Of a stretch of 64,000 nt of DNA, positions 1 through 39,609 are shown in pieces. The position numbers and the translations under genes were made by a program. This stretch comes from Rhabdothermincola salaria (GTDB lineage Bacteria > Actinomycetota > Acidimicrobiia > Acidimicrobiales > Acidimicrobilacustridaceae). Location: contig NZ_JAJQXW010000002.1 of NCBI RefSeq assembly GCF_021246445.1, forward strand, positions 186,001 through 250,000, read 5' to 3'. The notes below the pieces were generated by a model that saw only the letters and a list, made by a program, of their open reading frames with translations, searched no databases and was not told where the DNA came from. The first letter of the stretch is position 1, and every line of letters starts with the position of its first letter.

Positions 1-1685
1 AGGCTGCGGGCGAGATGGGCGAGCCACTCGCGCCGCCAGTAGCCGAGCAGGTCCCCTACGAGGTGCTCGGGGGTGTCGGGTCCGAAGCGATGCAGCTGGT
101 CTATGCGGTCGTAGAGAGCCGGCACGGCGTCGGCCAGTTCAAACTCGGCGACCCGCCACTGCATGTCTGGGCGGCGCTGGGCCACCAGCCAGTCGCGCAC
201 AGCCAGGGTGGCGAGCACGTCGTCGCGGTTGTAGGCGGCGATGCGCTCCAGCGCCGCCGGTTCACCCGAGTTCAGATAGGCGTCGTATTCGACGACGGCG
301 CCGGCGCCCTGGTCGATCCCGTGGCCCCTGATGTACCCGGTGACCCGCTCGACATGTTTGAGGCTGTAGGACTCGACGCCGATCTGGACGCCGTTGCGCA
401 CGGTCGGCAAGAGGTCGACGAAGGCACCGGTCTCGATCAGCCGCCCAAGGGCCGCCTCGCCCACGCCGTGGGTCGCAGTGAGCCGTTCGAGGGCGCTTCG
501 CTCGGTGTGGTTGTAGTGGTAGATGTGCATGCCCGGGTGAGCGGCGCGCCGCTCGGTGAGGAACTCCACGAGCCAGGCGGTGAGCTCGCGTTCGCCCTCG
601 AAGTCGTGGGCCCACCGGGCCTGGTATGCCCACTCGCCGTTTGAATCGCGGGCGAGTACACCGAACAAGAAGAACAACCCGATGTCGGGTCGCCAGAGTG
701 GGTGACCCTCGAAGTCCACGATCACGTCGCCGGGGTTGGGTGCCGGCAGGGTCTCAAAGCCGTGACCCCACCCGCCCGGGGCATCGGGGTCGTCACGAAG
801 CACGGCGAACGGGGGTGGCTCGCCTTCCGACAGGTTGCGGGCGGCGACCTGGAGCCGGGCCTGTCCGACCAGTCTGGTGAGCGTCTGGTCCGGCGTCGCA
901 GGAGGGTCGAGGGCAGCGAGCTGCGACATCGTGGTCACTGCGCCGGCGGCCAGGTCCTCGCGATCGCGGCGGGAGATCCCGGCGACGTAGATCAGCGAGT
1001 CGGCCGCCCGCCACTCGGCGTCGCATACGCCGGCGAAGTCACAGAACTCGCAGTGCGAGCATGGCTCCGCCGCCGTGTCGGCAGGCTCGGAGTCGGCGAG
1101 CAGCCGGGCCAGGTGGCCGCGCATGCGCCGCCAATAGGGGGCGTAGTCGGCGACGGGGAGCGACTCGATACGCCCAGAACCGAGCCAGAGGTGCACGTAC
1201 CTGGGGGCCACCCCGGTGTGAGCCTCGATCGCCTCGGCGTAGAAGCACAGCTGCAGCACGTGGGCCGGCGCTGCGGTGGTCCGCGTCAGCTTGGCGTCCA
1301 CCGGCTCGAAGCGAACCCCGTCGGTGTCCTCGATGCGCACCACGAAGTCCGCAATGCCACGTACACCGCCGTGGGCGAGCGGTACCTGGTAGGTGACTTC
1401 GTGGCCGCCGACGAACGGGTCGCCGAGGCGGGCCATCCACCTCTCGAAACTCTCGCCGCGGCGCCGCCCAGGTATTTCGAGCAACGACGTTGCCACTGAG
1501 CGGTAGTGCTCGAGGCAGGCGGTTTCATGGGCGAGACCTTTGTCGGCTACGAGGCGGGCGAAGGCGCCGACACCGCTCGCAGGGCGGGTCATCTCGCCGT
1601 TGTCGACTCGGCGCTCGAGCGTCACTGCGTGCGAACACTCGAGCCAGGCGCTGATCCGGGAGGGAGTGAGAATGTCGTCAGTCAC
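1..1685 (-). CDS. TM0106-family RecB-like putative nuclease (3' end beyond the left edge)
   Basis: The long minus-strand frame opens at a GTG (1683-1685), with GGAG about 11 nt upstream, and runs off the left edge; about 561 codons are visible. The N-terminus (LTPSRISAWLECSH) is typical of the TM0106 family, which pairs a RecB-like PD-(D/E)XK region with an RNase H-like exonuclease region. A cysteine cluster (CEFCDFAGVC, near 1030-1060) would suit an Fe-S site. Further on come a DxE motif (VIVDFEGHPL), the block YHYNHTERSALERL and, near the edge, YNRDDVLATLAVRDWL. Acidic residues of a DEDD-type exonuclease are therefore present. Family members are predicted nucleases of unknown physiological role. 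The phosphatase gene upstream reads the same way after a 151-bp gap. Truncation by the window, not by mutation. Confidence 0.85.
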   Translation of the reverse strand, partial: MTDDILTPSRISAWLECSHAVTLERRVDNGEMTRPASGVGAFARLVADKGLAHETACLEHYRSVATSLLEIPGRRRGESFERWMARLGDPFVGGHEVTYQVPLAHGGVRGIADFVVRIEDTDGVRFEPVDAKLTRTTAAPAHVLQLCFYAEAIEAHTGVAPRYVHLWLGSGRIESLPVADYAPYWRRMRGHLARLLADSEPADTAAEPCSHCEFCDFAGVCDAEWRAADSLIYVAGISRRDREDLAAGAVTTMSQLAALDPPATPDQTLTRLVGQARLQVAARNLSEGEPPPFAVLRDDPDAPGGWGHGFETLPAPNPGDVIVDFEGHPLWRPDIGLFFLFGVLARDSNGEWAYQARWAHDFEGERELTAWLVEFLTERRAAHPGMHIYHYNHTERSALERLTATHGVGEAALGRLIETGAFVDLLPTVRNGVQIGVESYSLKHVERVTGYIRGHGIDQGAGAVVEYDAYLNSGEPAALERIAAYNRDDVLATLAVRDWLVAQRRPDMQWRVAEFELADAVPALYDRIDQLHRFGPDTPEHLVGDLLGYWRREWLAHLARS

Positions 1686-1836: not shown

Positions 1837-2457
1837 TCATGCGGCGCGCCGGATCCGGCTGATCACCCCAGCGACGTCAATGGGTTTGTCACGGAACCAG
1901 TCGCCGAGCTCCTCGAACGCTGCGCCCGCACGATCCGAGTCCATTCCGGTGGACTCGACGTGGTGGACCAGAGCCGAGTCGGCATAGAGGATGGCGGCGA
2001 TTGGGCGCACCGCCCGGATGGCGTCGAGGGCTTCGGTGACGCGCCAGCCATCGGCGAGCAGCAGACGGAACGCCATCGAGGGGCCGCGATTCACGCCCAT
2101 GTGGCAGTGCACCAGCAGCCGGTCGCCGTGACGGCGTTCGGCCAGCACGGCCAGCCCGGCGTCCCACCACTTGTCGGGTTGGCGATCGCCGGCGTCATGG
2201 GTGCCCAGATGGTGGTAGGCGATGTGGGGCGCGACGCTTGCCACGAGCTCCTCATCGCTCCACTCCTCGCGCACATCGACGATGCGGGTCACCCCGAGAC
2301 CGTCCCAGTCCGCCAGTTGGGCGACAGCGCGCTCGAGGTCGTGGTGTAGGTCGCCGCACACCACCAGCCACTCACACACCTCGCCCGGGCGGCGGTGCCA
2401 GGCGGCGGCATCGACGCTGCGGCGGCTGGGGAACTGCTTGGGGCTCCGGTTGTTCAT
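1837..2457 (-). CDS. dual-specificity/tyrosine phosphatase family protein
   Basis: A 206-aa protein with the cysteine-phosphatase signature HC-X5-R: LLVHCHMGVNRGPS places the nucleophile at C118 and the phosphate-binding arginine at R124. An upstream HHLGTHD segment (about 82-88) sits where the general-acid aspartate loop lies in this superfamily. There is no signal peptide or membrane segment, so it is probably cytoplasmic. It reads in the same direction as the TM0106-type nuclease and divergently from the HDAC-like gene across a 247-bp intergenic region (2458-2704) that should hold both promoters. Its substrate is unknown. It could counter the protein kinase at 5.2-8.0 kb, but that is only a guess from proximity. 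Confidence 0.8.
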   Translation of the reverse strand: MNNRSPKQFPSRRSVDAAAWHRRPGEVCEWLVVCGDLHHDLERAVAQLADWDGLGVTRIVDVREEWSDEELVASVAPHIAYHHLGTHDAGDRQPDKWWDAGLAVLAERRHGDRLLVHCHMGVNRGPSMAFRLLLADGWRVTEALDAIRAVRPIAAILYADSALVHHVESTGMDSDRAGAAFEELGDWFRDKPIDVAGVISRIRRAA

Positions 2458-4044: not shown

Positions 4045-5136
4045 GTGAAGCTGTCTGAGGGTCTGGACAAGCCCACCACCGCCGCCCCGTGGCAGACGCT
4101 GCGGAACCAGTTCCTGCGCACTCTCGTGCGGGTCCAGGCGTCGGACGGCAACTGGCTGAGTGCGGTCGACGCAGTCGCAGCGTTCGGCGCACCGCTGTTC
4201 GTGATCACCGCCGCCAACCCGAACTCCAAGCGGGCGTCCAACGCCGAGAACGCCCGTCGCAGTGCGGAACTGCGCGACGCGCTCGTGGCTGGTGGCGCTC
4301 AGCCGCGCCGCGCCGTCGGTACCTCTGCCGACGGTCGATGGTCCGAGGCGTCCTGGGCGGTCAGTGGCCTCGGCCGCAAAGGTGCCAGGGAACTGGGACG
4401 CGAGTTCGGCCAGCTGGCCGTCTTCGAGCTGACGGCAACCGAGCTTCGCGTCCATGGGTGCGCGTCGTCGTGGGTCGAGACACGTCCCCTCACCTCCGAG
4501 ACGTGGGAACCGGCTCTCGAGTCCGACGTCGACCTCGCCCAGGCGGTAGCCGATCTGCTCGGGATCGAGGTCAACACCGGGAAGTGGTCCGAGGGCAAGG
4601 AGCCGGGATGGGTCCACGAAGACGGCGTCGGGCTCGACTGCCGGTGCGGCGAACACCTCGAGCTCTTCGGCTGCGAGCGCACCGCCAAGCGAGGCGGTCG
4701 ATACCGAGCAGTGGCGTTGGTGTGCCCAAACGAGCAGAGCGTGCTGTTCGGTCGCAACGCCACACCGGCGCAGAAGTCGGTGGTGAAGCGACGCCGCACC
4801 TATCTCATGGCGCGCCGAGACGCCGACCGCAAACGCCTGAGCGAACGCGCCTACTGGTGCTACGTGATCGAGCTGGCTGATACGGCGGGCCCTCGATCGT
4901 CGCCGCTGCCCTGGCTCTACGTGGGGCAGAGCGCGCTGACACCCGACGAGCGCTTGGCCCAGCACCGGGCAGGTATCAGAGCCAGCAAGTGGCCTCGCAA
5001 CCACGCCGTTGGGCTCCGAGCGGATCTCTACGACCAGCAGCCGGTTCTGCGGTCACAGGAAGAGGCTCGCGCCTACGAGACCTGGTGGGCCGAGGTCCTC
5101 GCCGTGCGGGGTTGGGCCATCAAGGGTGGCCACTGA
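4045..5136 (+). CDS. DUF3293 domain fused to a GIY-YIG-like nuclease domain
   Basis: A 363-aa two-domain protein with a GTG start. The N-terminal third carries the DUF3293 hallmark, a strand followed by TAANPNSKRAS and ENARRSAELRDAL (about residues 49-80). The C-terminal ~110 residues look like a GIY-YIG fold: YWCYVIEL, then LYVGQSALTPDERLAQHRAG, a downstream ARAYETWWAEVL with a candidate catalytic glutamate, and a terminal KGGH. The classic GIY/YIG tripeptides are replaced by CYV and LYV-G, so the assignment rests on overall pattern. A central CRC...C segment (about 197-215) might bind metal. GIY-YIG enzymes cut DNA in restriction, repair and homing. The next gene, the NERD kinase, starts 61 bp downstream on the same strand and is probably co-transcribed. 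Confidence 0.7.
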   Translation: MKLSEGLDKPTTAAPWQTLRNQFLRTLVRVQASDGNWLSAVDAVAAFGAPLFVITAANPNSKRASNAENARRSAELRDALVAGGAQPRRAVGTSADGRWSEASWAVSGLGRKGARELGREFGQLAVFELTATELRVHGCASSWVETRPLTSETWEPALESDVDLAQAVADLLGIEVNTGKWSEGKEPGWVHEDGVGLDCRCGEHLELFGCERTAKRGGRYRAVALVCPNEQSVLFGRNATPAQKSVVKRRRTYLMARRDADRKRLSERAYWCYVIELADTAGPRSSPLPWLYVGQSALTPDERLAQHRAGIRASKWPRNHAVGLRADLYDQQPVLRSQEEARAYETWWAEVLAVRGWAIKGGH

Positions 5137-5197: not shown

Positions 5198-7984
5198 ATG
5201 GCACAGGTGGCCGCTGCCGGCGGGGAGCCGGTGAACCACGGCGAGGAACTCACGATCGATGTCCTCGAAAGGGCACTCGGTGACGACGTCCGTCTGATCG
5301 CCAACTGGGAGGTCGTGCACCCGACCCGTGTGGACGAGTGTGACGTGATCGTCGTCAGCCCCGACGGTGTGTTCATCGTCGAGGTCAAGTATCTGTTCCC
5401 ACCGGTGGTGGTCGAGGAGAACGCATTCTTCGTGGGCGGCAAGACCCGCACGCATCCGTGGCACCTGACCAACCACAAGGCCAAGCGTCTTCGTACCAAG
5501 CTGAACGACAAGGTCCCCGGGTTCAGACAGGACGGGTGGGTCGAACCGCTTGTCGTGTTGGCTCGGGAACCGGAAGTTCTCGATGTGGACCTGCTCATGA
5601 TCAACCGGGTCGTGCTGTTGAACCGCGCCGTCGAGCTCCTGGCGCCACCTTCCCCCTTGATCGCACCACAGCGTCGCGGCCGCCTCGCCGGCCGGGTCGA
5701 CGAGGTTGTCGAGGCCATCATCGGCGCAGGTCGGGCCGCCGGAGGCGCTCAGCTCGTCGTGCCCGGTTACCGCCTCGACGAGTGCCTCTTCGCCGAGCCC
5801 GGGTACTCGATGTGGATCGCCACTCTTGAGTTGACCGGCCAGCAGTTCACCCTCGAACGTGCCGAGTTGCCGGCCGGGATGGTCGGTGCTGTTGCCGAGG
5901 GTTGGCGTGCCGGGGAGGCCGACGTCTTCAGAGCCGCTCAACAGATCGGTCCGCACGCTGGTGTGATTGGGCCGTTGGCGTGTTTCGACCTCGACGACGG
6001 TTCGGTCGTCACGATCTGGCCGGCACCGGACGCGACGCCGCTCAGCCTCCATCTCGCCGCCGCCGACGACGTACTCGACGCTGAGGAGGCCGAGCGCCTC
6101 GCCGCTGACATCGCCGATGCGTTGGCCCACGTCCACGCCAAGGGCATGGGCCACGGCTCCGTGTCATCAGCGACGGCCCAGGTGCTCGCCGACGGGCACG
6201 GCGCCCTGCGGTTGGGTCACGCGATCAGCGACGACCCCGGCGTCGTCATGGCCGACGGGGGGGCCCTCGCCGACCTGTTCGACCAGTTGGCCGAGGCCTC
6301 GACAACGAAGTCCTTGGCCGATCTCGCTGCCGAGCTACGCGCCGGCACGCTTTCCTGCGCCCAGGCCCGAGAGGCACTGGTCGGGGCGGCGCCGGCGCCG
6401 GCCGGCCCGGCGGAGGTCCTGCCTTCGGTGTGGGACCTCTACACCCTCGCCGGGCCGCTCACCGACGAACCGGCCCACACCTTCCTCGCACGGGACGAGG
6501 GCGGCGACGTCGTGGTCAAGCTCCTCGAAGGCTTCGATGAGGAGGACCCCGAGACCTGGAACGAGTACCGAGTCCTGCGGGGCCTCAACCATGAGTGCAT
6601 CGTGCGCGCCATCGGCGCCGGCGTCGCCGCCGAGGGCCCCTACCTCGTCACCACCTATCTCGATGGACCAAGCCTCCGCGAGGCGATCGACGCCGGCCTG
6701 GTCCGCTCCACCGACCGGGTCCTCAGCACGGTGCTCGAGCTGCTCGGCGCTCTCGACGTGATGCACCCCGACCCCAACGCCCGTCGCCAGCTCACCTCTC
6801 TCGAGCGCAGCGAGACCGACATGGCCACGTTCCGGTCCCTGCGCGACTCAAGCGAGAAGGGCGTGGTCCACAACGACATTCGCCCCGAGAACGTGCGCCT
6901 CGTCGGCGGCCGGCGTCCGATCCTGTTCGACTTCGATCTGGCCGCCCGGCCCGGTGCCCTCGTCGGCGTGGTCGCCTCCCCCTACCGGCCCGAAGACCTC
7001 CCCGCCGGTGAGGTGGCGGTCGATGCTGACCTCTACGCCGTGGGGGTGATGCTCCACGAGTTGCTCACCGGCAAGCAGCCGTTCCGAACCGATGGCGCCG
7101 GACGGCGTGTGCTGGCCGTCGACGAGTCCCTGCCTCCCGAGATCGCCAGCGTGATCCGCCAGGCTTGCGCCCCCCGTCAGCACCAACGCTTTCGCACCGC
7201 CAGCGAGTTCAGCGAGGCGCTCGTGGCCGCCGGCGTCGGCGGCGGGCTGGGCATCGAAGTCGAACCCGGCGCAGCCGAGCTGCTCAGCCGAATCGACCGA
7301 TTGTGGCGGGACAAGGACTTCGACGCGGCTCTCGACCTGTGCCCTGCGGACTGGGATCGCCTACGAGATCGCCTCGAGACAGCCCGTGACGCCGCCGCCC
7401 GGCCTGTCGACCTGGTCCTGGCCATCGAGGGGGTGGAGTTGCACCGTGTCGGTGAGCGGCTCATCGGGCCGGGGCAGACCGCCGGTGCGAGTCCCTTCGA
7501 GGAGGCGGTCGCAAGCGTCTACCGAGCAGTGCTCCCCGACGGCGGCTACGTCGACTTCGCGTACGCCTGCTCCGACGATGCCGGCGAAGCCTGGATCCAG
7601 GGACTCGACACACTTCACGTCCCGAGTCGATTGACCCGGCTTGCTCAAGGGTTGCGAGCAAGTGAACAGGAAGGCCCCGATCCGAACGCTGTGTACCTGA
7701 GGCTCCGTCAGGCCCGACTCACCCCCGACAGGGGCCCGGATTGGTCCAATGTGTTCAAGGCGTCACTCTCCGAACTGGACGCAGGTGCCGGTTGCGATGT
7801 CGCCGCTGTCTTGATGTCCGCCGGAGCGAAGGCGGTCGACTCCCAGGCGGTCGCCATCGGCGACACGGGGAGGACGCGAGGCGAGAGCTGCGTGGTCTAC
7901 GACCCCGACGAGCCCGGGGACGTCCCGGCGTTGGCCTACTTCCTCACCCGTGTGATCCCCCTCTACCGCTGCGTCAGCAACTAA
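5198..7984 (+). CDS. NERD nuclease-like domain with pseudokinase and Ser/Thr kinase domains (PglW-like)
   Basis: A 928-aa protein; I chose the ATG at 5198 because GAGGAG lies 8 nt upstream. Residues ~10-110 form a NERD domain with a PD-(D/E)XK-like signature D49...E62-V-K64. Residues ~240-350 resemble a kinase fold whose catalytic loop reads HGS (H319) instead of HxD, hence a probable pseudokinase. Residues ~415-700 are a full kinase: ATP lysine K441, catalytic loop H558-N-D560 with N565, and DFD (578-580) in place of DFG. The C-terminal ~220 residues are unassigned. NERD plus kinase is the architecture of PglW in BREX type 2 (Pgl) phage defence. No other Pgl/BREX-2 signature gene is visible, apart from an adenine methyltransferase 2 kb downstream. 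No membrane segment is seen, so it is probably cytosolic. Confidence 0.85.
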   Translation: MAQVAAAGGEPVNHGEELTIDVLERALGDDVRLIANWEVVHPTRVDECDVIVVSPDGVFIVEVKYLFPPVVVEENAFFVGGKTRTHPWHLTNHKAKRLRTKLNDKVPGFRQDGWVEPLVVLAREPEVLDVDLLMINRVVLLNRAVELLAPPSPLIAPQRRGRLAGRVDEVVEAIIGAGRAAGGAQLVVPGYRLDECLFAEPGYSMWIATLELTGQQFTLERAELPAGMVGAVAEGWRAGEADVFRAAQQIGPHAGVIGPLACFDLDDGSVVTIWPAPDATPLSLHLAAADDVLDAEEAERLAADIADALAHVHAKGMGHGSVSSATAQVLADGHGALRLGHAISDDPGVVMADGGALADLFDQLAEASTTKSLADLAAELRAGTLSCAQAREALVGAAPAPAGPAEVLPSVWDLYTLAGPLTDEPAHTFLARDEGGDVVVKLLEGFDEEDPETWNEYRVLRGLNHECIVRAIGAGVAAEGPYLVTTYLDGPSLREAIDAGLVRSTDRVLSTVLELLGALDVMHPDPNARRQLTSLERSETDMATFRSLRDSSEKGVVHNDIRPENVRLVGGRRPILFDFDLAARPGALVGVVASPYRPEDLPAGEVAVDADLYAVGVMLHELLTGKQPFRTDGAGRRVLAVDESLPPEIASVIRQACAPRQHQRFRTASEFSEALVAAGVGGGLGIEVEPGAAELLSRIDRLWRDKDFDAALDLCPADWDRLRDRLETARDAAARPVDLVLAIEGVELHRVGERLIGPGQTAGASPFEEAVASVYRAVLPDGGYVDFAYACSDDAGEAWIQGLDTLHVPSRLTRLAQGLRASEQEGPDPNAVYLRLRQARLTPDRGPDWSNVFKASLSELDAGAGCDVAAVLMSAGAKAVDSQAVAIGDTGRTRGESCVVYDPDEPGDVPALAYFLTRVIPLYRCVSN

Positions 7985-8303
7985 GCGCGCGCGTCGATAG
8001 CCATTTCGCTGCGTTGACCTCACCATGGCCCAGCCGAGATCTTCTCGCAGTACCGAGACCGCACCTACAGCCTGGGCTCGGCGGCAAGCGACCTCGACAC
8101 CGTTGACGACCTCATCGTGCTCGTCGCCGATGACGACTCAGCCCTGCGAGACGCCGGTCGGGTCGTCGCACCCGTGACCCTGGGTCACGGGTGCACTGAC
8201 CCGTCGGCCTGTGGTGGGTTTCCCGAACTCAACCCTTGACAGACCCCACGGGTGAGCCACGCGGGCGCGCACACGATGTCAAGCCGGTGACGTTCTGGTT
8301 CAC
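7985..8303. other. 319-bp intergenic region with a possible gene remnant
   Basis: Between the kinase stop and the sigma-factor start lies a coding-like stretch with no start codon at its head. From about 8017 to 8238 one frame reads AEIFSQYRDRTYSLG...DDLIVLVADDDSALRDAGRVV and ends at TGA. Its upstream end is closed by a stop, so if it was ever a gene it is now a remnant. The region also contains the palindrome listed separately. A TTGACA occurs at 8236-8241, but no matching -10 hexamer was found at normal spacing. Confidence 0.4.
8168..8194. repeat. 27-bp perfect palindrome (two 13-bp arms around one base)
   Basis: The arms GCACCCGTGACCC and GGGTCACGGGTGC flank a single T. The match is perfect over 13 bp per side. 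It lies 110-136 bp before the sigma-factor start and 184 bp after the kinase stop. No T-run follows on either strand, so an operator for a dimeric regulator is at least as likely as an intrinsic terminator. Confidence 0.7.
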
Positions 8304-9860
8304 ATGGACATGAGACCTGCCACCGAGACGGCATTCGACCCCACGCGCACCGCATGGCGCGACAACACCGACGATGCCGGCGCTCCTACCGAAACCGATC
8401 GGTTCAGCCGGGCCGTTGTGCTCTGCCTTGACTGGTGCGGAACAGAGGGGCTCGACCGCCACATGGTCGACGACATCGCCGACGAGGTCGGTTTGGCGAC
8501 CACCGACGTCCCCGGGCTGGTCCGGGCTCTGCGCCACACCGGCGTCGCCGTCACCCCTGGCGAGGAGCCCGACGAGCCGGGCTGGAGCGGCGGGGGGACC
8601 AAGCGGGTTCTCAAAATGTGCCCAATCGATCTGCTCAGCGCCAGGCAGGAGCGCCAGCTGGCCGTCGGGGTTCGCGAGGGCGTGCAAGCCAGGGAGGCGC
8701 TCAACGCTGGCGGGGACGTCCTCAACCCGGGTGACCGGCGCCAGCTCCGGGCGGTCGTCGCCCGCGGGGAACGGGCTCGAGACCAACTGGTCCTGCACAA
8801 CGTGCGGCTGGTCCACTCCACCGCTGCGAAGTACCGCAGCCGAGCCGGTAACACCCTCGAGATCGACGACCTGTTCCAGGAGGGCTACTTCGGGCTCCGC
8901 AAGGCCGTCGAGGCCTTTGACCCCAGCCGGGGCTTCCGGTTCTCCACCTATGCGATGCCCTGGATCCGCCAGTCCATCAACCGGGCGATCGACAACACGG
9001 CCCGCCTCATCCGACTCCCAGTCCATCGCGCCGATTCAGTTCGCAACGCCATCGCCGAGGAGCGGGCGTTCGAACGGTTCTTCCATCGGGCGCCCACCGA
9101 CCCCGAGCTCGCCGAGCGGCTCGGCATCGATCTGGAAGCCTGCCGTCAGTTGCGGGCCTTGGCCTGCCGGCCGGTGCCGGTGCATCTGCCCGATGTCGAC
9201 GACGGGTACCTCCGAACCCTTGAGACCGGCGAGCATCTGCAGATCGATCCGACCATCGCCGTCGATGACCGGGCCGCTGCCGACTGGTTCTTGGCGAGGT
9301 TGAACGAACGAGAGCAGACGATCCTGCGGCGCCGCTTCGGTCTCGACACTGGTGAGGCGGAGACACTCGATGCGATCGGGCGGTCGATGGGCCTCACCCG
9401 TGAACGCATCCGCCAGATCGAAAAGGCGGCGCTCGAGCAGTTGCGGGCCCTCGCCCAAAGCGAGAACGAGACCGAGGCGGCACCCACTCCGTGCCAGCCG
9501 GGGCGGCGCCGGCCCAGGAGGCGTGCCCAACGCCTCGTTGCGGTGGTGGCCGCCGACCAGGTGGCCGACGAGGCGGACCCGGACGCGGCCAATACGGATC
9601 GGTCAGCACCGCCGAACGATGAGAAGCCCATCGTCGACGACGGGTACCGCTTCGTGCCGTCAGTCGATGTCGACGCCGTGCGCCCCATGAATCCCGGCAC
9701 TGAGGTGTCAGACATCGACCTGGCACCGGCGGCCGTCTTCGACGGCACGGTCACCGAAATCGCCCGGCGGCTGGAGGTCGTCGAGTCGCTAGCAAAGACG
9801 GGTCTGATCACTCCCGACGAGCGCAACCAGACTCGCCACCACATCCTGCTCGCCGTCTGA
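8304..9860 (+). CDS. RpoD-like sigma-70 factor with long C-terminal extension
   Basis: A 518-aa sigma-70 family protein. A region 1.2-like segment, DLLSARQERQLAVGVREG, is near residue 110. Region 2 is strong (LEIDDLFQEGYFGLRKAV near 185-200, then FRFSTYAMPWIRQSINRAI). Region 3 follows, and region 4 runs from about 333 to 385 (LNEREQTILRRRFGL ... GLTRERIRQIEKAALEQLR). After region 4 come about 130 extra residues: a basic tract, an acidic linker and a terminal helix pair (EVVESLAKTGLITPDERNQ) resembling the SHOCT short C-terminal motif. Region 2 and 4 quality is that of a primary or group 2 sigma, not an ECF factor. It sits between the NERD kinase and the methyltransferase operon on the same strand, so it could drive the island's own promoters (inference). 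No good ribosome-binding site precedes the ATG. Confidence 0.9.
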   Translation: MDMRPATETAFDPTRTAWRDNTDDAGAPTETDRFSRAVVLCLDWCGTEGLDRHMVDDIADEVGLATTDVPGLVRALRHTGVAVTPGEEPDEPGWSGGGTKRVLKMCPIDLLSARQERQLAVGVREGVQAREALNAGGDVLNPGDRRQLRAVVARGERARDQLVLHNVRLVHSTAAKYRSRAGNTLEIDDLFQEGYFGLRKAVEAFDPSRGFRFSTYAMPWIRQSINRAIDNTARLIRLPVHRADSVRNAIAEERAFERFFHRAPTDPELAERLGIDLEACRQLRALACRPVPVHLPDVDDGYLRTLETGEHLQIDPTIAVDDRAAADWFLARLNEREQTILRRRFGLDTGEAETLDAIGRSMGLTRERIRQIEKAALEQLRALAQSENETEAAPTPCQPGRRRPRRRAQRLVAVVAADQVADEADPDAANTDRSAPPNDEKPIVDDGYRFVPSVDVDAVRPMNPGTEVSDIDLAPAAVFDGTVTEIARRLEVVESLAKTGLITPDERNQTRHHILLAV

Positions 9861-10001: not shown

Positions 10002-13000
10002 ATGAGTGAGTTCTTGGAGGACGTCGATCCTCGCCGGTGGAAGGATCTTCCCGACGGGTCCCCCGCCTATCTCAAGCCTGTGGAGTTCTACCTGGGTGTT
10101 GATCCAAACAAGGGCCGCGACATCGTCGTGCGCGTCGTCGATGCTGAGCGCCCTCCAGCCCGGGGCGACCTGGAGAGGCTCTGGCAGTCGATGGCGCAGA
10201 CACTGGTTCTGGTGCTTGCGGTCCGCTACGTCTCCAAGGGCTCCGAGGTGGTCGACCTGGTGGGTGGCCGCCGGAAGTTGCCGGCTAACGCACCCAAGGG
10301 TGCGCGTCCTCGTCCGCTGGTCGTGCAGAAGGTGCCCGTCGTCGAGGCCCGGAAGTTTTGTCAGATCATCCTCAGCGAAGAGACGCCGCACTCAGCGAAT
10401 CGTCTGGTGGCGCGATGGATGGACGAGCGCGCCACCGAGATGCCTGGCCTCAAGAACGACGGACTCTTCGCCCGGCACGCGCTGCTCAACTACGTGCCAG
10501 AACGCCCCGACTGGCCGCCCGCGTCCGAGAAGGCCACGAAGGCCCGCGACACCGCCGGCCGTGACCTCGTAAAGGCACTCGGCTTTCACATCGACGAGTC
10601 GAGTGAGCCCAATGCGGTGTTGCTCACCATCGATGGCGCCCCGACTGCCTCGGCGCTGTTCCTCGAGGGTGCGGGCTCATTCGACGAGCCGAGCGCCCAG
10701 TACGGGGCCATCTCCCCTGTCACCCATGCACTCGCCGTCGCACGCCGGCATCGGGTTCGGTGGGTTGTGCTCACCCGTAAGCGCAGCATTCGTCTGCATC
10801 CGGTGAGCCCTGACCTCGGCGTGGGTCGGCGAGGTCGCACCACCACCTACGTCGAAATCAACCTCGACATGCTGCCCGAGGACCGCTCGGCCTTTCTATG
10901 GCTGCTGTTCAGCTCTGAGGCGCTCACTGACGGGGGCACCGTCGACGAGATCCTCGCCGCATCGGAGCGGTTCGCAAATGATCTCGGGTCCCGACTCCGG
11001 GAGCGTGTCTACAACGAGGTCGTCCCAGACCTCGCGACCGCACTCGGCCGTCAGCTCGCCGAAGACACTGAAGACGGTTGGCTCACCGAGGCCTACCACC
11101 GCACCATGGTGGTCCTGTTCCGGATGCTGTTCGTCGCATACGCCGAGGACAAGGGCCTTCTCCCGTACGAACGCAACATCCCGTACACGAACGCCTCGCT
11201 GAAGACGATTGCCCGGGAACTCATCCCCTACGTCCAGGGCGAGCAGGAGTTCTCGCCCGACTCCGCAGTGTTCTGGAGACGCGTCGTCAACCTGTGGCGA
11301 GCCGTCGACAAGGGCAAGACCGACTGGGGCATCCCGGCCTACAACGGTGGCCTCTTCTCAACCGCCGGCGCCACCGGTGCGGCACTCGACAAGCTCGAAC
11401 TCAGCGACCTTGATTTCGGCCCAGCGCTGGCACGCCTGCTCGTCGACATCGACCCGGACGGTGTTGAGGGGCCGGTTGACTTCCGGTCGCTGTCGGTGCG
11501 GGAGTTCGGCTCCATCTACGAGGGGCTGCTCGAAAGCGAGCTCGCCGTCGCCGAAACTGACCTCACCACCGACAAGAAGGGCCTCTACCTTCCCTCCCGG
11601 AAGAAGGACAAAGTCGTCGTTGCAGCAGGCGAGGTCTACTTTCACAATGCCTCAGGCGCCCGAAAGTCGAGCGGCTCGTACTTCACTAAACCGTTCGCTG
11701 TCGAGCACCTGCTCGACCACGCGCTCGAACCCGCCATCGCCGATCATTTCGGCCGTGTCGTCGCAGACCTCGACCGGGGCGACGACGCAGCGGCAGCACG
11801 CCGGTTCTTCGACTTCCGCTGCGTCGACATCTCGATGGGCTCAGGGCACTTCCTGGTGGCCGCGGTTGACCGGCTCGAGGCGCGGTTCTCCGAGTTCTTG
11901 GATGAGCACCCCATCCCTGGGGTGACCCGGGAACTCGAGACACTGCGTGAGGCCGCGCTCAACGAGCTCCGCCACTGCGCGGACGATGCGCTTATCGAGA
12001 ATGCAGCGCTGCTGCGTCGTCAGATCGCCCGACGCTGCGTCTACGGCGTCGACCTAAACCTGGTGTCGGTCGAGCTAGCGCGGCTCGCGATCTGGATTCA
12101 CACCTTCGTGCCGGGCCTTCCGTTGTCGTTCCTCGACCACAACCTCGTCGCGGGCAACTCCCTCACCGGCATCGGGACACTCGACGAAGCTGCGGGTGCC
12201 GTCGACCAGAACTCGTTCGTCGCCGCGTCGCTCGAGGACATGATCGGCAAGGCCCGCCCCGCCCTCGAACGGCTCGGTACTGTCACTGATGCGACGGTTG
12301 CCGATGTGAAGGCAGCACGCTCGGCACACGAGGAGGCCAAGAACGCGATCGCGGACGCCGAGCGCCTGTTCGACCTCCTTGTGTTGAACCGAGCCGATCT
12401 TGCTGGCATCAGCCTTTTCAGCACGGACCAGGACTCCGTCGCACAACTGCACGCTGATGTCGCAGTTGCCGATGCTCTGTCTGAGCTCAACCCGCTTCAC
12501 TACCCGACGGCCTTCCCCGAGGTGTTCCTCCGTGAGCGTCCAGGCTTCGACTGCATCTTGGGCAACCCGCCGTGGGACAAGGTTCGGTTTGAGCCGCAGC
12601 AGTTCTGGGTAGTTCGAGCTCCTGGGCTCAGGTCCCTCTCGGAGCCGCAGCAGAAGCGGATGATGGAACGTCTCCGCTCTGAGCGACCCGCCGAGGCCAT
12701 GGCGGAAGTGCGCGAACGCGAGTCCCGAGAGCAACTGCAAGGACTCATCGACAACGCCTTCCTCTGGCAAGGTCGGGGGCAGCATGGACACCACGATTAC
12801 GCCAAGTTGTTCGTTGAGCGGGCGCTGCGGCTCCTCGGGCAACACGGAAGCCTCGGATACGTGCTGCCGCGGACATCGTTGGTTCTCGCAGGGTGGACTG
12901 ACCTGAGGCGGGCAATGATGGATGGCGCGGAACTTTCGCTACTTCAGGCTCGAAACAAGCGAGGGTTCCTTTTCGACGACGTCGATCAGCGACTCATGAT

Positions 13001-13988
13001 GGTCCTTTGCTCCCGCACCCCGGGCAGCGGCGAGGTGCTCATCTGGCCGTCCATCACTAGCGAAGAGTCACTGCGAAACGCCGGTGCGACGCCGGGAATC
13101 AGCGTCGGCCGGGACGAGATTGAGTCGCTCACGGACAAGAGCGTTATTCCATGGTTCTCCAGCGGAGAGGACCGGCCCATTTTCGATCAGCTTCGCAAGG
13201 CCCGCAGGCTCGGGGAGCCGAGCGGCTGGATCACCGGTCGTGCTGACTCCTCCCGGTGGGACTTCAGCGGGTCCGGCCCACACCGAGCCTTCATCACCGA
13301 TGCCGGCTCAAAGGCGAGTTGGCGAGTCCTGATGACGCGTCATGTCGATCAGTACCGCATCGCCATGGAGGATGAGTTCCGGCGCTTCATCGTCAGCCCC
13401 GCAGAACTCGCCCCGCTGCATCTAGGTGTCGTGGTGGACAAGCGAGGTCGCGTTCACGTTGGAGCGGATCATCCAGTGATCATCTACCGCTACCCGAGCA
13501 TGAACGACAACAGCCGCACAGTACTTGCCACTGCCCTTCCGGACGAAGGCTTCCTGTTCTCCAAGGGTTACGTCCATGGAGTGATGGTCGATCCGTCAAC
13601 CTCGACGTCGCACATCCTTGCGCTTCTCGGGCTGATGAACAGCTACACCTGTGACTGGTGGGCGCGGCGCTTCGTCGACCGGCACGTGACGAAGCAGACC
13701 ATTGAGAACCTCCCGCTGCCCGAGTGGGACGAAGAGTCGATTGAGAGAGTGGCGAGGTGGGTCGCCGCATTGCTGAGCATGGGTGGAACCAAGACGCTCG
13801 CGGGGGGTCGCAAACTCGAGGGTGTAATTCGCATCACTGACAGGGACGAACTCGTTGTTGCGATCGAGAAGGAGGTTCTCCTTGGCTTCGGGCTCTCGAC
13901 CACAGATCTCGCATCAGTCCTTGAGGACTTCAGCGACACTGGCTGCCCTGAGGATCTGAGGTCACAGTTGTTGGAGGACCTGGCATGA
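10002..13988 (+). CDS. large Eco57I/PglX-like N6-adenine DNA methyltransferase
   Basis: A 1328-aa class I SAM-dependent DNA methyltransferase. Motif I is D609-ISMGSGHF with a following LVAAVDRLEAR, and catalytic motif IV is N855-P-P-W858 within CILGNPPWDKVRFE, so both SAM binding and adenine-N6 transfer look intact. Ahead of the catalytic domain is the family block FRMLFVAYAEDKGLLPYE. The N-terminal ~300 residues resemble the degenerate nuclease-like region of Type IIG/ISP enzymes (VVLTRKRSIRLHP), but I see no intact PD-(D/E)XK triad. The C-terminal ~300 residues look like a TaqI-type target-recognition region ending in TKQTIENLPLPEW. It is the first gene of the 10.0-22.2 kb operon; its TGA overlaps the helicase ATG (ATGA). 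Confidence 0.92.
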   Translation: MSEFLEDVDPRRWKDLPDGSPAYLKPVEFYLGVDPNKGRDIVVRVVDAERPPARGDLERLWQSMAQTLVLVLAVRYVSKGSEVVDLVGGRRKLPANAPKGARPRPLVVQKVPVVEARKFCQIILSEETPHSANRLVARWMDERATEMPGLKNDGLFARHALLNYVPERPDWPPASEKATKARDTAGRDLVKALGFHIDESSEPNAVLLTIDGAPTASALFLEGAGSFDEPSAQYGAISPVTHALAVARRHRVRWVVLTRKRSIRLHPVSPDLGVGRRGRTTTYVEINLDMLPEDRSAFLWLLFSSEALTDGGTVDEILAASERFANDLGSRLRERVYNEVVPDLATALGRQLAEDTEDGWLTEAYHRTMVVLFRMLFVAYAEDKGLLPYERNIPYTNASLKTIARELIPYVQGEQEFSPDSAVFWRRVVNLWRAVDKGKTDWGIPAYNGGLFSTAGATGAALDKLELSDLDFGPALARLLVDIDPDGVEGPVDFRSLSVREFGSIYEGLLESELAVAETDLTTDKKGLYLPSRKKDKVVVAAGEVYFHNASGARKSSGSYFTKPFAVEHLLDHALEPAIADHFGRVVADLDRGDDAAAARRFFDFRCVDISMGSGHFLVAAVDRLEARFSEFLDEHPIPGVTRELETLREAALNELRHCADDALIENAALLRRQIARRCVYGVDLNLVSVELARLAIWIHTFVPGLPLSFLDHNLVAGNSLTGIGTLDEAAGAVDQNSFVAASLEDMIGKARPALERLGTVTDATVADVKAARSAHEEAKNAIADAERLFDLLVLNRADLAGISLFSTDQDSVAQLHADVAVADALSELNPLHYPTAFPEVFLRERPGFDCILGNPPWDKVRFEPQQFWVVRAPGLRSLSEPQQKRMMERLRSERPAEAMAEVRERESREQLQGLIDNAFLWQGRGQHGHHDYAKLFVERALRLLGQHGSLGYVLPRTSLVLAGWTDLRRAMMDGAELSLLQARNKRGFLFDDVDQRLMMVLCSRTPGSGEVLIWPSITSEESLRNAGATPGISVGRDEIESLTDKSVIPWFSSGEDRPIFDQLRKARRLGEPSGWITGRADSSRWDFSGSGPHRAFITDAGSKASWRVLMTRHVDQYRIAMEDEFRRFIVSPAELAPLHLGVVVDKRGRVHVGADHPVIIYRYPSMNDNSRTVLATALPDEGFLFSKGYVHGVMVDPSTSTSHILALLGLMNSYTCDWWARRFVDRHVTKQTIENLPLPEWDEESIERVARWVAALLSMGGTKTLAGGRKLEGVIRITDRDELVVAIEKEVLLGFGLSTTDLASVLEDFSDTGCPEDLRSQLLEDLA

Positions 13989-16900
13989 CCACCGACCCGA
14001 AACCCGTCATCGCGACGAATCGTCCCGGGGAGGGCGTTGCAGAGGCGATCAACGCTCGGCTCGCCTACTGGGAATCGGAGATGGTCAACGCACCAGAGGT
14101 GCGCATTTCGACCGCCTACTTCAACCCCGGTGGCTACTCACTCCTCGCTGACCAGCTCGACAACGCAGCGAAGGTGCGGCTCCTCCTCGGCGTAGAGCCT
14201 GAGCTGCCGGAGCGTCGGGTCCGGTCTCTTGCAGAGCCGTCCAATCGTGCCAGGGCGGAGCGTCTTCGACTCGCCGACGCCCTGTCGGAAGCCGAGGGGT
14301 GGATCATTGAGGAGCGCAATCTGCTCGGCTTCAGCATCGACGCCGACGCCAACGCCAAGCGACTCGTCAAGTGGTTGAAATCCGACCATGTTGAGGTGCG
14401 CCGGCTCACCGACCGTTTCCTGCACGGCAAGGCGTTCATCATCCCCACAGGCAAGGACATGGCGATGGTGGGGTCGTCCAACTTCACGTACGCCGGGCTG
14501 TCGACGAACGCCGAGCTCAACCTTGGCCGCTACGACGACGCCGTCGAACTGGTCACCAACTGGTTCGATGAGATGTGGGACGCGGCCGAGGACTACGACC
14601 TGGCGCGCATCTACGAGGCCCGCTTCCTCGAACACCACCCCTGGACGATCTACCTGCGAATGCTCTACGCCGTGTACGGCGCTGACCTGGCAGAAGAAGA
14701 GCGCCGCCGGGCTTCCGAGCTGATGCTTGCCCCGTTCCAGGTCGCGGGTGTCGTACGGGCGATGCGCTATCTCGAGGAACGCCACGGCGTGATCGTGGCC
14801 GATGACGTCGGCCTCGGGAAGACGTTCGTTGCGGGTGAGATCTTGATGCGGTTCGTTCGTGACAACCGCCAGCGTGCCCTGGTCATCGCCCCTGCGGTGC
14901 TGCGCGACGGGCCGTGGAAGCGGTTCTTGTTCGAGAACAACCTGAACGTCGAGGTGCTGTCGTACGAGCAACTTGCCAGCGAATCTGCTCTGCACACCGA
15001 GGATGAACGCGCCCGCCTCCAGGCCCACCTCAAGCTCGATGTCGACGACTACTCACTCGTTGTCGTCGACGAGGCACACAACCTCCGGAACCCTGCCGCC
15101 CAGCGCTCAGAGGCACTCCGAAGGCTGCTCGCCGGTACTCCGCGCAAGAAGATTGTCCTGCTGACGGCGACGCCGGTGAACAACAGTCTGATGGACGTGT
15201 ACCACCTGCTCCGGTTCTTCGTCCTCGATGACGCGGCTTTCGCAGACCGGGGCATCACCTCGATGAAGGCTCGTTTCGACGATGCGATGGCCAAGGACCC
15301 TGAGGAACTCTCCGCCGACGACCTATTCGAGATCCTCGACTACTCAGTCGTCCGCCGCACCCGGTCGTTTGTGCGGAAGTACCACCCGAACGACAGGCTG
15401 ATCATCAACGGCCAGTGGCAGACCGTCAACTTCCCAACCCCACGCCCTATCCAGGTCGACTACGACCTGGAGGAGGCCTACCCCGGGCTGCTCGAACGCT
15501 TCGCGAAGGCCATCGAGGCGTACACCTACGGGGCGCCCTGCCCTGACGGAGTCTTGGCGATGGCTCGCTACATGCCGTCGCTTTACAGGCTCGAGAACAT
15601 CAAGTTTCGCAAGGGTGAGCAGTTCGAGATCCAGCTCGGTGGTTTGCTCCGATCAGCGTTGCTCAAGCGCTTCGAGTCCTCGGCGCTCGCGTTCGCCAAG
15701 ACGGCGCGCAAGATGGCCGACAGCCACGACGGCATGATCGAGCTCCTCCTCGCCGGCAAGGTGCCCACCGGGCGCGCTCTCACCGAGTGGATGAAGACCG
15801 ACGCCGATGACATCGAGGCTTTCGAGGAGCTCATTACCGACAAGGATGGCTTCGAACTCGAACCCGCCGAGAACTACGACGCCGAGGCCCTCAAACGAGA
15901 TCTCGAGCGAGACCGCGACCTGCTCCGCAGCTTCGCCGCAGAAGCCGAGAAGGTCGCCGCCAAGGACGATCCGAAACTCGACGCCATCGTTGAGGAACTC
16001 GCGATCATCGCCGCCCAAGCCGCCAAGGAGAGTGTCGGCGAAGACCAGGAGCGCGACCAGCGCAAGGTTCTGATCTTCAGCTACTTCGCCGACACCGTGA
16101 AGTGGGTGCATGACCACCTCGTCATCGCCACCCAGTCAGACCCCCGCCTCGCTGCCTACAAGGACCGCATCGTGGCCGTGTACGGCAACGATGCCGACTC
16201 GAGCAAGGCGATGTTCGGCTTCGCGCCGAAGACCACCGACCCGCCTGCCGGCGCCGACAATGACCTCTTCGACATCGTCATCGCGACCGATGTCCTCGCC
16301 GAAGGCGTGAACCTCCAACAGGCGCGCCACATCATCAACTACGACCTGCCGTGGAACCCGATGCGCCTCGTGCAACGTCACGGCCGCATCGACCGCCTGG
16401 GCAGCCTGCACGAGGAGGTGTTTCTCCGCTGCGTGTACCCGGACAAACAACTGGACAAGCTGCTGGAGCTCGAGGCCCGTCTTCACCGCAAGCTCCGCCA
16501 GGCGATGGTCACCTTCGGCGGCACAGCGCCCCTACCTGGGTACGACGACGTAGACGTCTCCTACACGGACGACACTAAGGACGTTCTCGACAAGCTCCGC
16601 GCCGGCGACAACAGCCTGTTCACTACCGGCGGCGGCACAGTCCTCGGTGAAGAGTTCCGCCAGTTCCTCCGTCGTGAACTTGAACGACCGGGCACCAAGG
16701 AACGGCTGCACGACCTGCCCTGGGGGGCGGGCTCAGGCTTCGTTCGAGCCGGCACCCAGCCAGCGTGGGTGTTCTGCGCTCAGGTCGGCGACCACCCCGA
16801 GGCCCGATTCGCGTACGTCACGCTCGGACCCGACGGGTACGTCGTGGACGGCAATCAGCTGCGGTCCTTGCTCGAAGCACGTCCTGACGACGAGGCAAAC

Positions 16901-17368
16901 ACGACCCGTACGCTTAGCCCTGAGATGTACGAAGCAACGTTCAAGGCGTGGGATACCGCCCGGGACCACATTCTCGAATCTTGGGAGTTCGCCACCGACA
17001 CCAAGAACCTTGACCCCAAGATCCCGGCGGTCATGGACCGAGCCATTGCCGTCGTTGAGGACGACTACGAAGGTGTTCTCACCGTCGAAGAAGCTGACGC
17101 ACTCGTCGAGCGGCTTCGGGCGCCCTACCCGGAACGACTTCTTCGCCCGGTGCGCAAGGTGTTGAACGAAGGAAGTCCCAAGGACCAGGTTGCCGCACTC
17201 GCTGAGCTTGCCGATCAACTGGGCTTCACCCCCAGCACCCGACCGCAGCCTCTCCCGCCGGTCAACGAAGACGACATCCACCTGCTGTGCTGGATGGCGA
17301 TCACTCCCAACGGGCCCGCTGGCCTCATCGAACAACTCGGTGAATTGCCGCTCGGCGACAAGCTCTGA
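13985..17368 (+). CDS. PLD-domain/SNF2-type helicase fusion
   Basis: A 1127-aa protein. The N-terminal ~200 residues carry a phospholipase D-like motif, H147-G-K149 followed by G163-S-S-N166 (HxK...GSxN without the usual aspartate). The rest is a superfamily 2 SNF2/HepA-type ATPase: Walker A in DDVGLGKT (K279), Walker B DEAH (362-365), motif III LLTATPVNNS, a C-terminal RecA lobe with IVIATDVLAEGVNLQQA, and motif VI QRHGRIDRLGS beginning at Q797. A charged helical insert (about 590-690) separates the lobes. SNF2 ATPases with PLD domains occur in restriction-like and defence clusters, where they are thought to translocate on DNA and recruit nuclease activity. The 4-bp overlap with the methyltransferase implies translational coupling. 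Confidence 0.92.
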   Translation: MTTDPKPVIATNRPGEGVAEAINARLAYWESEMVNAPEVRISTAYFNPGGYSLLADQLDNAAKVRLLLGVEPELPERRVRSLAEPSNRARAERLRLADALSEAEGWIIEERNLLGFSIDADANAKRLVKWLKSDHVEVRRLTDRFLHGKAFIIPTGKDMAMVGSSNFTYAGLSTNAELNLGRYDDAVELVTNWFDEMWDAAEDYDLARIYEARFLEHHPWTIYLRMLYAVYGADLAEEERRRASELMLAPFQVAGVVRAMRYLEERHGVIVADDVGLGKTFVAGEILMRFVRDNRQRALVIAPAVLRDGPWKRFLFENNLNVEVLSYEQLASESALHTEDERARLQAHLKLDVDDYSLVVVDEAHNLRNPAAQRSEALRRLLAGTPRKKIVLLTATPVNNSLMDVYHLLRFFVLDDAAFADRGITSMKARFDDAMAKDPEELSADDLFEILDYSVVRRTRSFVRKYHPNDRLIINGQWQTVNFPTPRPIQVDYDLEEAYPGLLERFAKAIEAYTYGAPCPDGVLAMARYMPSLYRLENIKFRKGEQFEIQLGGLLRSALLKRFESSALAFAKTARKMADSHDGMIELLLAGKVPTGRALTEWMKTDADDIEAFEELITDKDGFELEPAENYDAEALKRDLERDRDLLRSFAAEAEKVAAKDDPKLDAIVEELAIIAAQAAKESVGEDQERDQRKVLIFSYFADTVKWVHDHLVIATQSDPRLAAYKDRIVAVYGNDADSSKAMFGFAPKTTDPPAGADNDLFDIVIATDVLAEGVNLQQARHIINYDLPWNPMRLVQRHGRIDRLGSLHEEVFLRCVYPDKQLDKLLELEARLHRKLRQAMVTFGGTAPLPGYDDVDVSYTDDTKDVLDKLRAGDNSLFTTGGGTVLGEEFRQFLRRELERPGTKERLHDLPWGAGSGFVRAGTQPAWVFCAQVGDHPEARFAYVTLGPDGYVVDGNQLRSLLEARPDDEANTTRTLSPEMYEATFKAWDTARDHILESWEFATDTKNLDPKIPAVMDRAIAVVEDDYEGVLTVEEADALVERLRAPYPERLLRPVRKVLNEGSPKDQVAALAELADQLGFTPSTRPQPLPPVNEDDIHLLCWMAITPNGPAGLIEQLGELPLGDKL

Positions 17369-17370
17369 GT

Positions 17371-17706
17371 GTGCCGACGGTGGCTGACTCGAACACCGCC
17401 GGAGGGACCGACGAGAACGACCGCCGACACCCCCAGCTGCTCCGTCAGCTCCGCAAGGAGGGACGGCTCGTCGTTCCTGCAGCCGGGCGAGGCCTGGACG
17501 ACGCATGGCCGCCAGAGGCGAGCGTGACAGTCCCAGACATCGACACCGAAGCCTCGGTCGATATCGGGTACGGGCAGCTTTCCATGTTGCGCATCCGCCC
17601 CGACCTGATCGAGGTGCTCGACTGCAGCAGCGGTGAGACACAGCCCCCTCGGCACTATGACATCGCCGCGAACCTGCGGACCGCAGGCAGAGGTCATGGC
17701 AACTAA
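17371..17706 (+). CDS. 111-aa orphan protein inside the methyltransferase/helicase operon
   Basis: A GTG-started frame opens two bases after the helicase stop and overlaps the next gene's ATG by 11 bp, as expected for a translationally coupled operon member. The protein is rich in Asp/Glu/Arg. It contains PQLLRQLRKEGRLVVPAAG and IGYGQLSMLRIRPDLIEVLD, the latter resembling a small beta-rich domain. There are no cysteines forming an obvious metal site (a single Cys near the C-terminus) and no signal peptide. I do not recognise a family. Position suggests a small accessory subunit of the system; the evidence is entirely contextual. Confidence 0.6.
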   Translation: MPTVADSNTAGGTDENDRRHPQLLRQLRKEGRLVVPAAGRGLDDAWPPEASVTVPDIDTEASVDIGYGQLSMLRIRPDLIEVLDCSSGETQPPRHYDIAANLRTAGRGHGN

Positions 17707-39368: not shown

Positions 39369-39390
39369 GTGCAGACCAGCGACATGCCCC

Positions 39391-39609
39391 CTAGGTATGG
39401 CCTCGACCATCGCTGGCCTCGCCGGCCACGAGAGCGTCTAAGTCCTTGGCGCGGATCAATGTCCTGCCCCCCACCTTGATCCTCTCCAGCTTCCCGGCGG
39501 TGAGCTGCCGGTAGACCGTGACCTCGGTGACTCGGAGGAGTTCCGCCACCTCCTTGACCGTCAGCAGCGACGGCAGCTCTCCGAAGACGGGCGAGGCGAT
39601 CTTGTTCAT
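39391..39609 (-). CDS. xis: excisionase-like helix-turn-helix protein
   Basis: A 72-aa MerR-type winged HTH of the excisionase/AlpA group: LLTVKEVAELLRVTEVTVYR, QLTAGKLERIKVGGRTLIRA and DLDALVAG. Such proteins bend attachment-site DNA to favour excision. Its ATG overlaps the integrase stop by 4 bp (39606-39609), so int and xis are co-transcribed and coupled, the usual arrangement in actinomycete integrative elements. Confidence 0.85.
   Translation of the reverse strand: MNKIASPVFGELPSLLTVKEVAELLRVTEVTVYRQLTAGKLERIKVGGRTLIRAKDLDALVAGEASDGRGHT

Follow-up and report, generated by a model that had tools for sequence, protein, structure and literature searches.

Proteins in which a NERD domain is followed by an inactive and then an active kinase are described for PglW and some DndF proteins in a survey, the relevant sections of which propose that such proteins act as a sensory hub with suicidal back-up effectors (PMC12839542). 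For PglW of BREX type 2, one report found that resistance to phage and autophosphorylation both depend on the lysine of its kinase, and that the protein appeared to be toxic to E. coli (PMC4365076). A subset of the DndF proteins of DndFGH has a wHTH, a NERD domain and tandem inactive and active kinases, as given in the part of PMC10853773 on that system, and NERD is listed for Mokosh type I in the corresponding part of PMC10952713. MADS is described as methylation-based in the part of PMC12904381 that covers it, with its restriction mechanism listed there as unknown. Searches of the open-licence PMC literature yielded no description of a short form of the NERD-pseudokinase-kinase protein; the protein analysed here, P0001, has this form. 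It is encoded in a 64,000-nucleotide stretch of the Rhabdothermincola salaria genome, which we call the window.

The gene for P0001 occupies positions 5198-7984 of the plus strand as one open frame of 928 aa, which starts at the ATG at 5198, has GAGGAG upstream, and ends at 7984. The NERD domain (5234-5560), of the PD-(D/E)XK type, matched Pfam PF08378 over residues 13-121 with 43.2 bits (cut-off 22.1). Its D49, E62 and K64 are all present; D49 and K64 are retained in 12/12 aligned NERD-kinases, and position 62 is E in 10 of the 12 and D in two (L027 and L064). A pseudokinase follows at residues ~190-400 (5765-6397; approximate boundaries, set by eye), as indicated by the motif table and by the NCBIfam MAD6 model, whose positions 1-336 align to residues 1-333. 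In this first kinase H319-G320-S321 replaces HRD, and the catalytic Asp, Asn and DFG are missing. The second kinase (residues ~412-677; 6431-7228) scored 63.6 bits with Pkinase PF00069, above the cut-off, and residues 545-676 matched PknB among PDB sequences. The motif table gives it K441, H558-N-D560, N565 and D578-F-D. These observations agree with the sequence-only reading, which had named the three NERD residues, the HGS loop and a kinase with correctly numbered K441/D560/D578, and had recognized in their order the layout of PglW. Two features go beyond that reading, namely a conserved C-terminal domain (residues ~690-928) and the rank of MAD6 above PglW in NCBIfam. Because the second kinase has HND for HRD, DFD for DFG, and a degenerate Gly-rich loop, we are unsure whether P0001 would have kinase activity. 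The corresponding motifs are HRD and DFG in the relative from genome G322 and HRD and DFD in that from G738, and the DFG position reads DFN in all 7 MAD6-type rows. Structure prediction of full-length P0001 gave a mean pLDDT of 53, too poor for a claim about its fold.

The private C-terminal domain (residues 690-928; 7265-7981) is common to P0001 and its G322 and G738 relatives, and is conserved over ~240 residues in three species. It stands where L026 and L027 have a longer tail with the P-loop-like motif GNAGDGKTA. None of the three rows (0/3) matched Pfam, comparison with PDB sequences gave nothing convincing (best E 0.43), and a model of the domain, itself poor (pLDDT 65), matched no fold at E <= 0.001. 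Apart from the window's own copy, a search of 198 genomes, apparently not including G322 and G738, gave one weak partial match (E 5.6e-4). In the reading that we prefer, the domain is probably a sensor of infection.

The top NCBIfam model for P0001 was MAD6 (NF047741), with 227.7 bits against a cut-off of 460, followed by PglW (NF033442), with 83.1 bits against 990; the protein is under the cut-off for both equivalog models. The two full relatives scored 296.2 and 278.9 bits for MAD6, both below 460, and 117.9 and 117.7 bits for PglW; L025, L026 and L027 exceeded the MAD6 cut-off with 572-754 bits. In PADLOC, P0001 scored 92.6 bits with PD-T4-6 kinase models, the best match for its kinase part, 82.5 bits with PglW and 67.9 bits with mad6. 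The two relatives had mad6 slightly above PglW (129.6 vs 122.7 bits, and 130.1 vs 117 bits). A tree was made from 12 rows: the three short forms, two annotated PglW and seven MAD6-type proteins, with L025-L027 placed in this group by model score, and L063, L064, L067 and L068 by similarity and neighbours. P0001 and the G322 and G738 relatives formed one clade (100/100), of three members only, outside the seven MAD6-type and two PglW rows; the MAD6-type rows were not a single clade relative to PglW. The root was placed at the midpoint of a tree without DndF and MkoA, the window row is a long branch, and four rows, the window's among them, have an unusual amino-acid make-up; the tree supports a third lineage, not an order of origin. 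Identity with PglW did not hold up, since P0001 is under the PglW and MAD6 cut-offs and branches apart from both. As far as sequence comparison goes, these results support a rare third branch in the superfamily of NERD-pseudokinase-kinase proteins, alongside MAD6 and PglW.

The phylum sample (396 genomes) gave full relatives in G000 and G322, the class sample (395) in G000, G322 and G738, and the order sample (397) in G000 and G738; these samples overlap, and the counts exclude matches to the kinase part only, which occurred in 2, 4 and 3 genomes, respectively. The same-genus genome G980, in the order sample, had no full relative. G322 was the only positive among 138 genomes of its order, and 0 of 66 genomes of another class were positive. 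P0001 and two of the tails matched none of 72,556 plasmid records. Partial matches occurred in 17 of 50,697 phage records, none covering 80% and the best lying within residues 426-672. Pattern scans of viral contigs (50 and 5 candidate stretches) confirmed no relative. A scan of genome contigs gave 79 candidates and 3 relatives, all MAD6 by model; it used narrow patterns from two short stretches and is a weak gauge of the frequency of the short form. One Nonomuraea protein (L069:8995-10344) has NERD and a single kinase-like domain, with no second kinase in frame.

Downstream of the kinase gene, in order on the same plus strand, are a sigma-70 family factor (8304-9860; NCBIfam, Pfam, PADLOC), an N6-adenine methylase with an Eco57I domain that is type IIG or DrmMI like (10002-13988; PADLOC, Pfam), a PLD(HKD)-Snf2 helicase with C3a139 as its best PADLOC model (13985-17368; PADLOC, Pfam), and two further proteins. 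The first of these has an uncertain start and no family assignment in PADLOC or Pfam (17633-19381), and the second has a weak PADLOC match to ZacB of 47.6 bits (19386-22160). The methylase and helicase are candidate partners of P0001. Gaps of 319 bases and 141 bases precede the sigma and methylase genes, respectively. The first gap contains an inverted repeat (8159-8203) with a perfect 27-base core (8168-8194), and the surrounding stretch has a more stable predicted fold than shuffled sequences (z -4.55); judged by sequence, it is perhaps a terminator of the kinase transcript or an operator. Scans for sigma-70 promoters and T-run terminators gave results not above chance, with no consensus promoter of the sigma-70 type upstream of these genes. 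GC content is 0.686 for the kinase gene, 0.684 for the sigma gene, 0.688-0.694 for genes to the left, and 0.635-0.651 for the operon genes. This step is a weak argument against a tie between kinase and operon, because GC3 separates the gene groups less well (the helicase, at 0.813, overlaps) and the abutting G738 genes vary more (0.554-0.629).

Other genes of the window include one for a DUF3293 protein (4045-5136), which ends 61 bases upstream of the kinase gene, and one for a dual-specificity phosphatase-like protein (1837-2457, minus strand) 2.7 kb from it. The latter scored 27.5 bits with DSPc, below the cut-off of 33.5, has a CX5R motif by eye, and is a possible enzyme opposing the kinase. 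A RecB-like nuclease with an RNase H-type domain is encoded at 3-1685 (minus strand), in a frame that seems to continue into L004:18326-19999 with an AAA_11/AAA_12 helicase; a 1,166-aa homologue follows the methylase-helicase pair in L036. At 37506-40715, an N6-methylase gene lies beside genes for a phage-type integrase and for a small HTH-like protein, and may belong to an integrated element.

The neighbourhoods of the relatives were compared with that of P0001. A tight operon in G738 (L046, minus strand) runs from an HKD-Snf2 helicase through a type ISP N6-methylase and a HicA-like protein to the kinase, which closes it; the spacings are 1 to 36 bases if the kinase starts at its ATG. The protein between methylase and kinase (L046:10513-11679, minus strand) has 389 aa and a HicA-like C-terminus. 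The window and G738 helicases share 27% and have C3a139 as best PADLOC model in both cases. The two N6-methylases each match a type IIG model best, not the same one, and align over a motif only. Divergent from the G738 helicase gene is a protein with a region-4-like stretch that weakly matches the window sigma factor (32% over 87 aa, E 8.8e-6; Pfam below cut-off). Upstream of the G322 kinase (L012) lie genes for a C5-methylase and a Vsr nuclease and, at a greater distance, for a DUF6339 protein and a protein of 619 aa; counterparts of this latter pair lie near the G738 kinase on the other strand. The 52 kb that surround the G322 kinase (L050, L012, L013) gave no match to the window helicase. 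A DNA methylase gene is within ~2 kb of the kinase in 3/3 short-form genomes, and other relatives also have such neighbours (N6_Mtase in L025, an annotated N-6 methylase in L063, L064 and L067, and pglX beside L065 and L066), in a tally that covers L025 and L063-L067. By a rough estimate from 3 hits in 3.9 Mb, a point chosen at random in the genome has a 1.5% chance of lying within 10 kb of an Eco57I-type methylase; this figure does not allow for methylases of other types or for the tendency of defence genes to cluster. Because defence genes cluster, proximity alone is weak support.

A different fusion was seen in three genomes, where BrxL carries a protein kinase at its C-terminus (BrxL_N, BrxL_ATPase, Pkinase; L014:5924-8914, L015:8344-10791, and L047:9345-11801 on the minus strand); adjoining N6-methylase domains were confirmed in L014 and L047. 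The BrxL section of PMC12839542 names Lon or HKD tails only, and no description of BrxL with a kinase domain was found in the open-licence PMC literature.

The reverse comparison started from the operon. Helicases close to the operon's (E <= 1e-100) were present in 9 of 396 genomes; of the 8 besides the window's own, 6 are readable upstream, as the G058 contig ends at the helicase and that of G163 has 3,134 bases. Six-frame tblastn (E <= 1e-3) detected the operon's methylase upstream of the helicase at 6/6 readable loci, in pieces in G263, and the kinase, with three queries, at 0/6. For the sigma factor and for the last two proteins of the operon the tblastn result was likewise 0/6, and a comparison of called genes agreed that kinase, sigma factor and last two proteins are absent from these loci. 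No full kinase relative was found in the 8 helicase genomes, which seem to belong to the same phylum sample; a kinase match on another contig of G390 is a BrxL fusion. Upstream of the close helicase of G263 (L074:7721-13019) are a second, distant methylase stretch and an HKD-Snf2-like helicase (26% over 835 aa), again with the kinase absent. Because the methylase is found at 6/6 of these loci and the kinase at 0/6, the operon in this exact form does not need the P0001 kinase. The suggestion of the sequence-only reading that P0001 regulates the downstream operon fared unevenly: a kinase of this lineage does lie in an operon with a distant helicase of the same kind and an N6-methylase in G738, but the association was not seen at any of the readable loci. 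A fixed pairing is disfavoured by the reverse comparison and by the palindrome, whereas the G738 operon speaks for a functional pairing; P0001 may gate this very operon.

The reading that we prefer, with confidence a little short of an even chance, is that a rare third lineage of NERD-pseudokinase-kinase proteins provides a portable sensor or switch for methylation-based defences. The C-terminal domain, the pseudokinase, or both would sense infection or a methylase-DNA complex; the live kinase would then phosphorylate itself and partner proteins; and phosphorylation would release restriction by the neighbouring methylase or nuclease-helicase, perhaps with DNA cutting by the protein's own NERD domain. 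For P0001 itself, the operon at 10-22 kb would be the partner, a weakly supported pairing. This switch reading draws on the mostly kept catalytic residues, the dead first kinase, the conserved tail and the nearby methylases; the small number of members (three), their differing cores, helicase kin without a kinase, and the palindrome between kinase and sigma gene count against it. By its sequence, P0001 is a real, rare variant in which a private tail is added to the familiar three-part module, and its gene lies close to methylase genes. That one lineage with a sensor-like C-terminal domain plugs into unrelated methylation cores as an exchangeable phosphorylation switch we consider doubtful; such cores would be a type IIG or ISP methylase with an HKD-Snf2 helicase, and a C5-methylase with Vsr.

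P0001 could instead be a self-contained anti-phage gene, a solo kinase-nuclease of the abortive type that lies by chance in a defence island with no functional tie to the operon. The PD-T4-6 match of its kinase part fits this explanation, as do the palindrome and composition step that separate it from the operon and the missing kinase at the operon's relatives. It accounts poorly for the G738 kinase, which directly adjoins a methylase operon of the same orientation, and for the MAD6 and PglW relatives, which belong to multigene methylase systems; we regard it as unlikely, but as the alternative to be taken most seriously. A second alternative is that the kinase acts on the adjoining sigma factor, so that infection would lead to transcription of the methylase operon. 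The one-strand order of kinase, sigma factor and operon, the composition that sigma and kinase genes share, and the region-4-like protein of G738 are consistent with such a relay. The top NCBIfam model of the sigma factor is the defence sigma MzaA, at 210 bits against a cut-off of 800, and general RpoD-type models reach 199. Since the sigma factor is unmatched at the 6 readable operon loci and around the G322 kinase, and the consensus scan (sigma-70 type only) showed no promoter upstream of these genes, we consider this relay distinctly improbable.

The earlier statement that Pgl partners are missing was upheld within the sensitivity of the searches. The genome had 0 matches to PglZ, in a search that also missed a weak PglZ beside the BREX-like locus of G511, and 0 to BrxC/PglY (DUF6079), with a model that matches 1 of 14 controls only, below cut-off. 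Of the 15 genes called over the 20 kb that precede the window on its left, 10 show no resemblance to pgl genes, 3 of these 10 having no family match. Among the relatives, PglZ was found neither in G322 nor above cut-off in G738, which has one match below it on another contig. Because the PglZ search missed the weak G511 protein, absence of Pgl partners from the genome is likely rather than proven. Decay of a former BREX-2 (Pgl) locus to a relic would explain the PglW-like domain order, the missing partners and the rank of PglW above mad6 in PADLOC, but the NCBIfam scores (far under the PglW cut-off and below MAD6), the separate clade, the tail conserved in three species, the frame free of stops and, within the limited sensitivity of those searches, the missing PglZ and DUF6079 matches make it very improbable.

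If the switch reading of P0001 is correct, a kinase would gate restriction in systems for which no kinase is known. The compact 928-aa protein and the four-gene operon of G738 would offer a simpler system in which to ask how kinases such as those of PglW and MAD6 control methylation-based immunity and whether phosphorylation switches restriction on or off, and could reveal what the NERD domain cuts.

Among known systems, MkoA of Mokosh type I has PADLOC models of 1,112 and 1,607 aa that match the NERD and kinase parts of P0001 with 66.9 and 61 bits, each over part of its length only. The DndF subset shares NERD and the tandem inactive and active kinases; none of the 25 PADLOC matches listed for P0001, of 31, is DndF, and where a DndF-type P-loop kinase core is concerned, the C-terminal part of P0001 is without a Pfam match and its structure model is poor. 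PglW of BREX type 2 has the same order of NERD, pseudokinase and kinase, but has 1,400-1,600 aa compared with 928, and its tail, described in the PglW part of PMC12839542 as triple wHTH and iSTAND, is unexpected at the length of P0001 and has no profile match there. Unlike the MAD6 proteins of L026 and L027, P0001 has no long tail with a P-loop-like motif, and it falls in a separate clade. The MADS neighbours are an N6-methylase, an S subunit and two large downstream genes; P0001 is without the S-subunit, ~530-560-aa and ~1,750-1,900-aa partners of MAD6-type genes, and the window operon genes match models other than those of the MADS neighbours (compare L063 and L067). With MAD6 it shares the NERD domain, the degenerate first kinase, the live second kinase, the insertion that precedes the catalytic loop (present in L025 and L026), and methylase neighbours.
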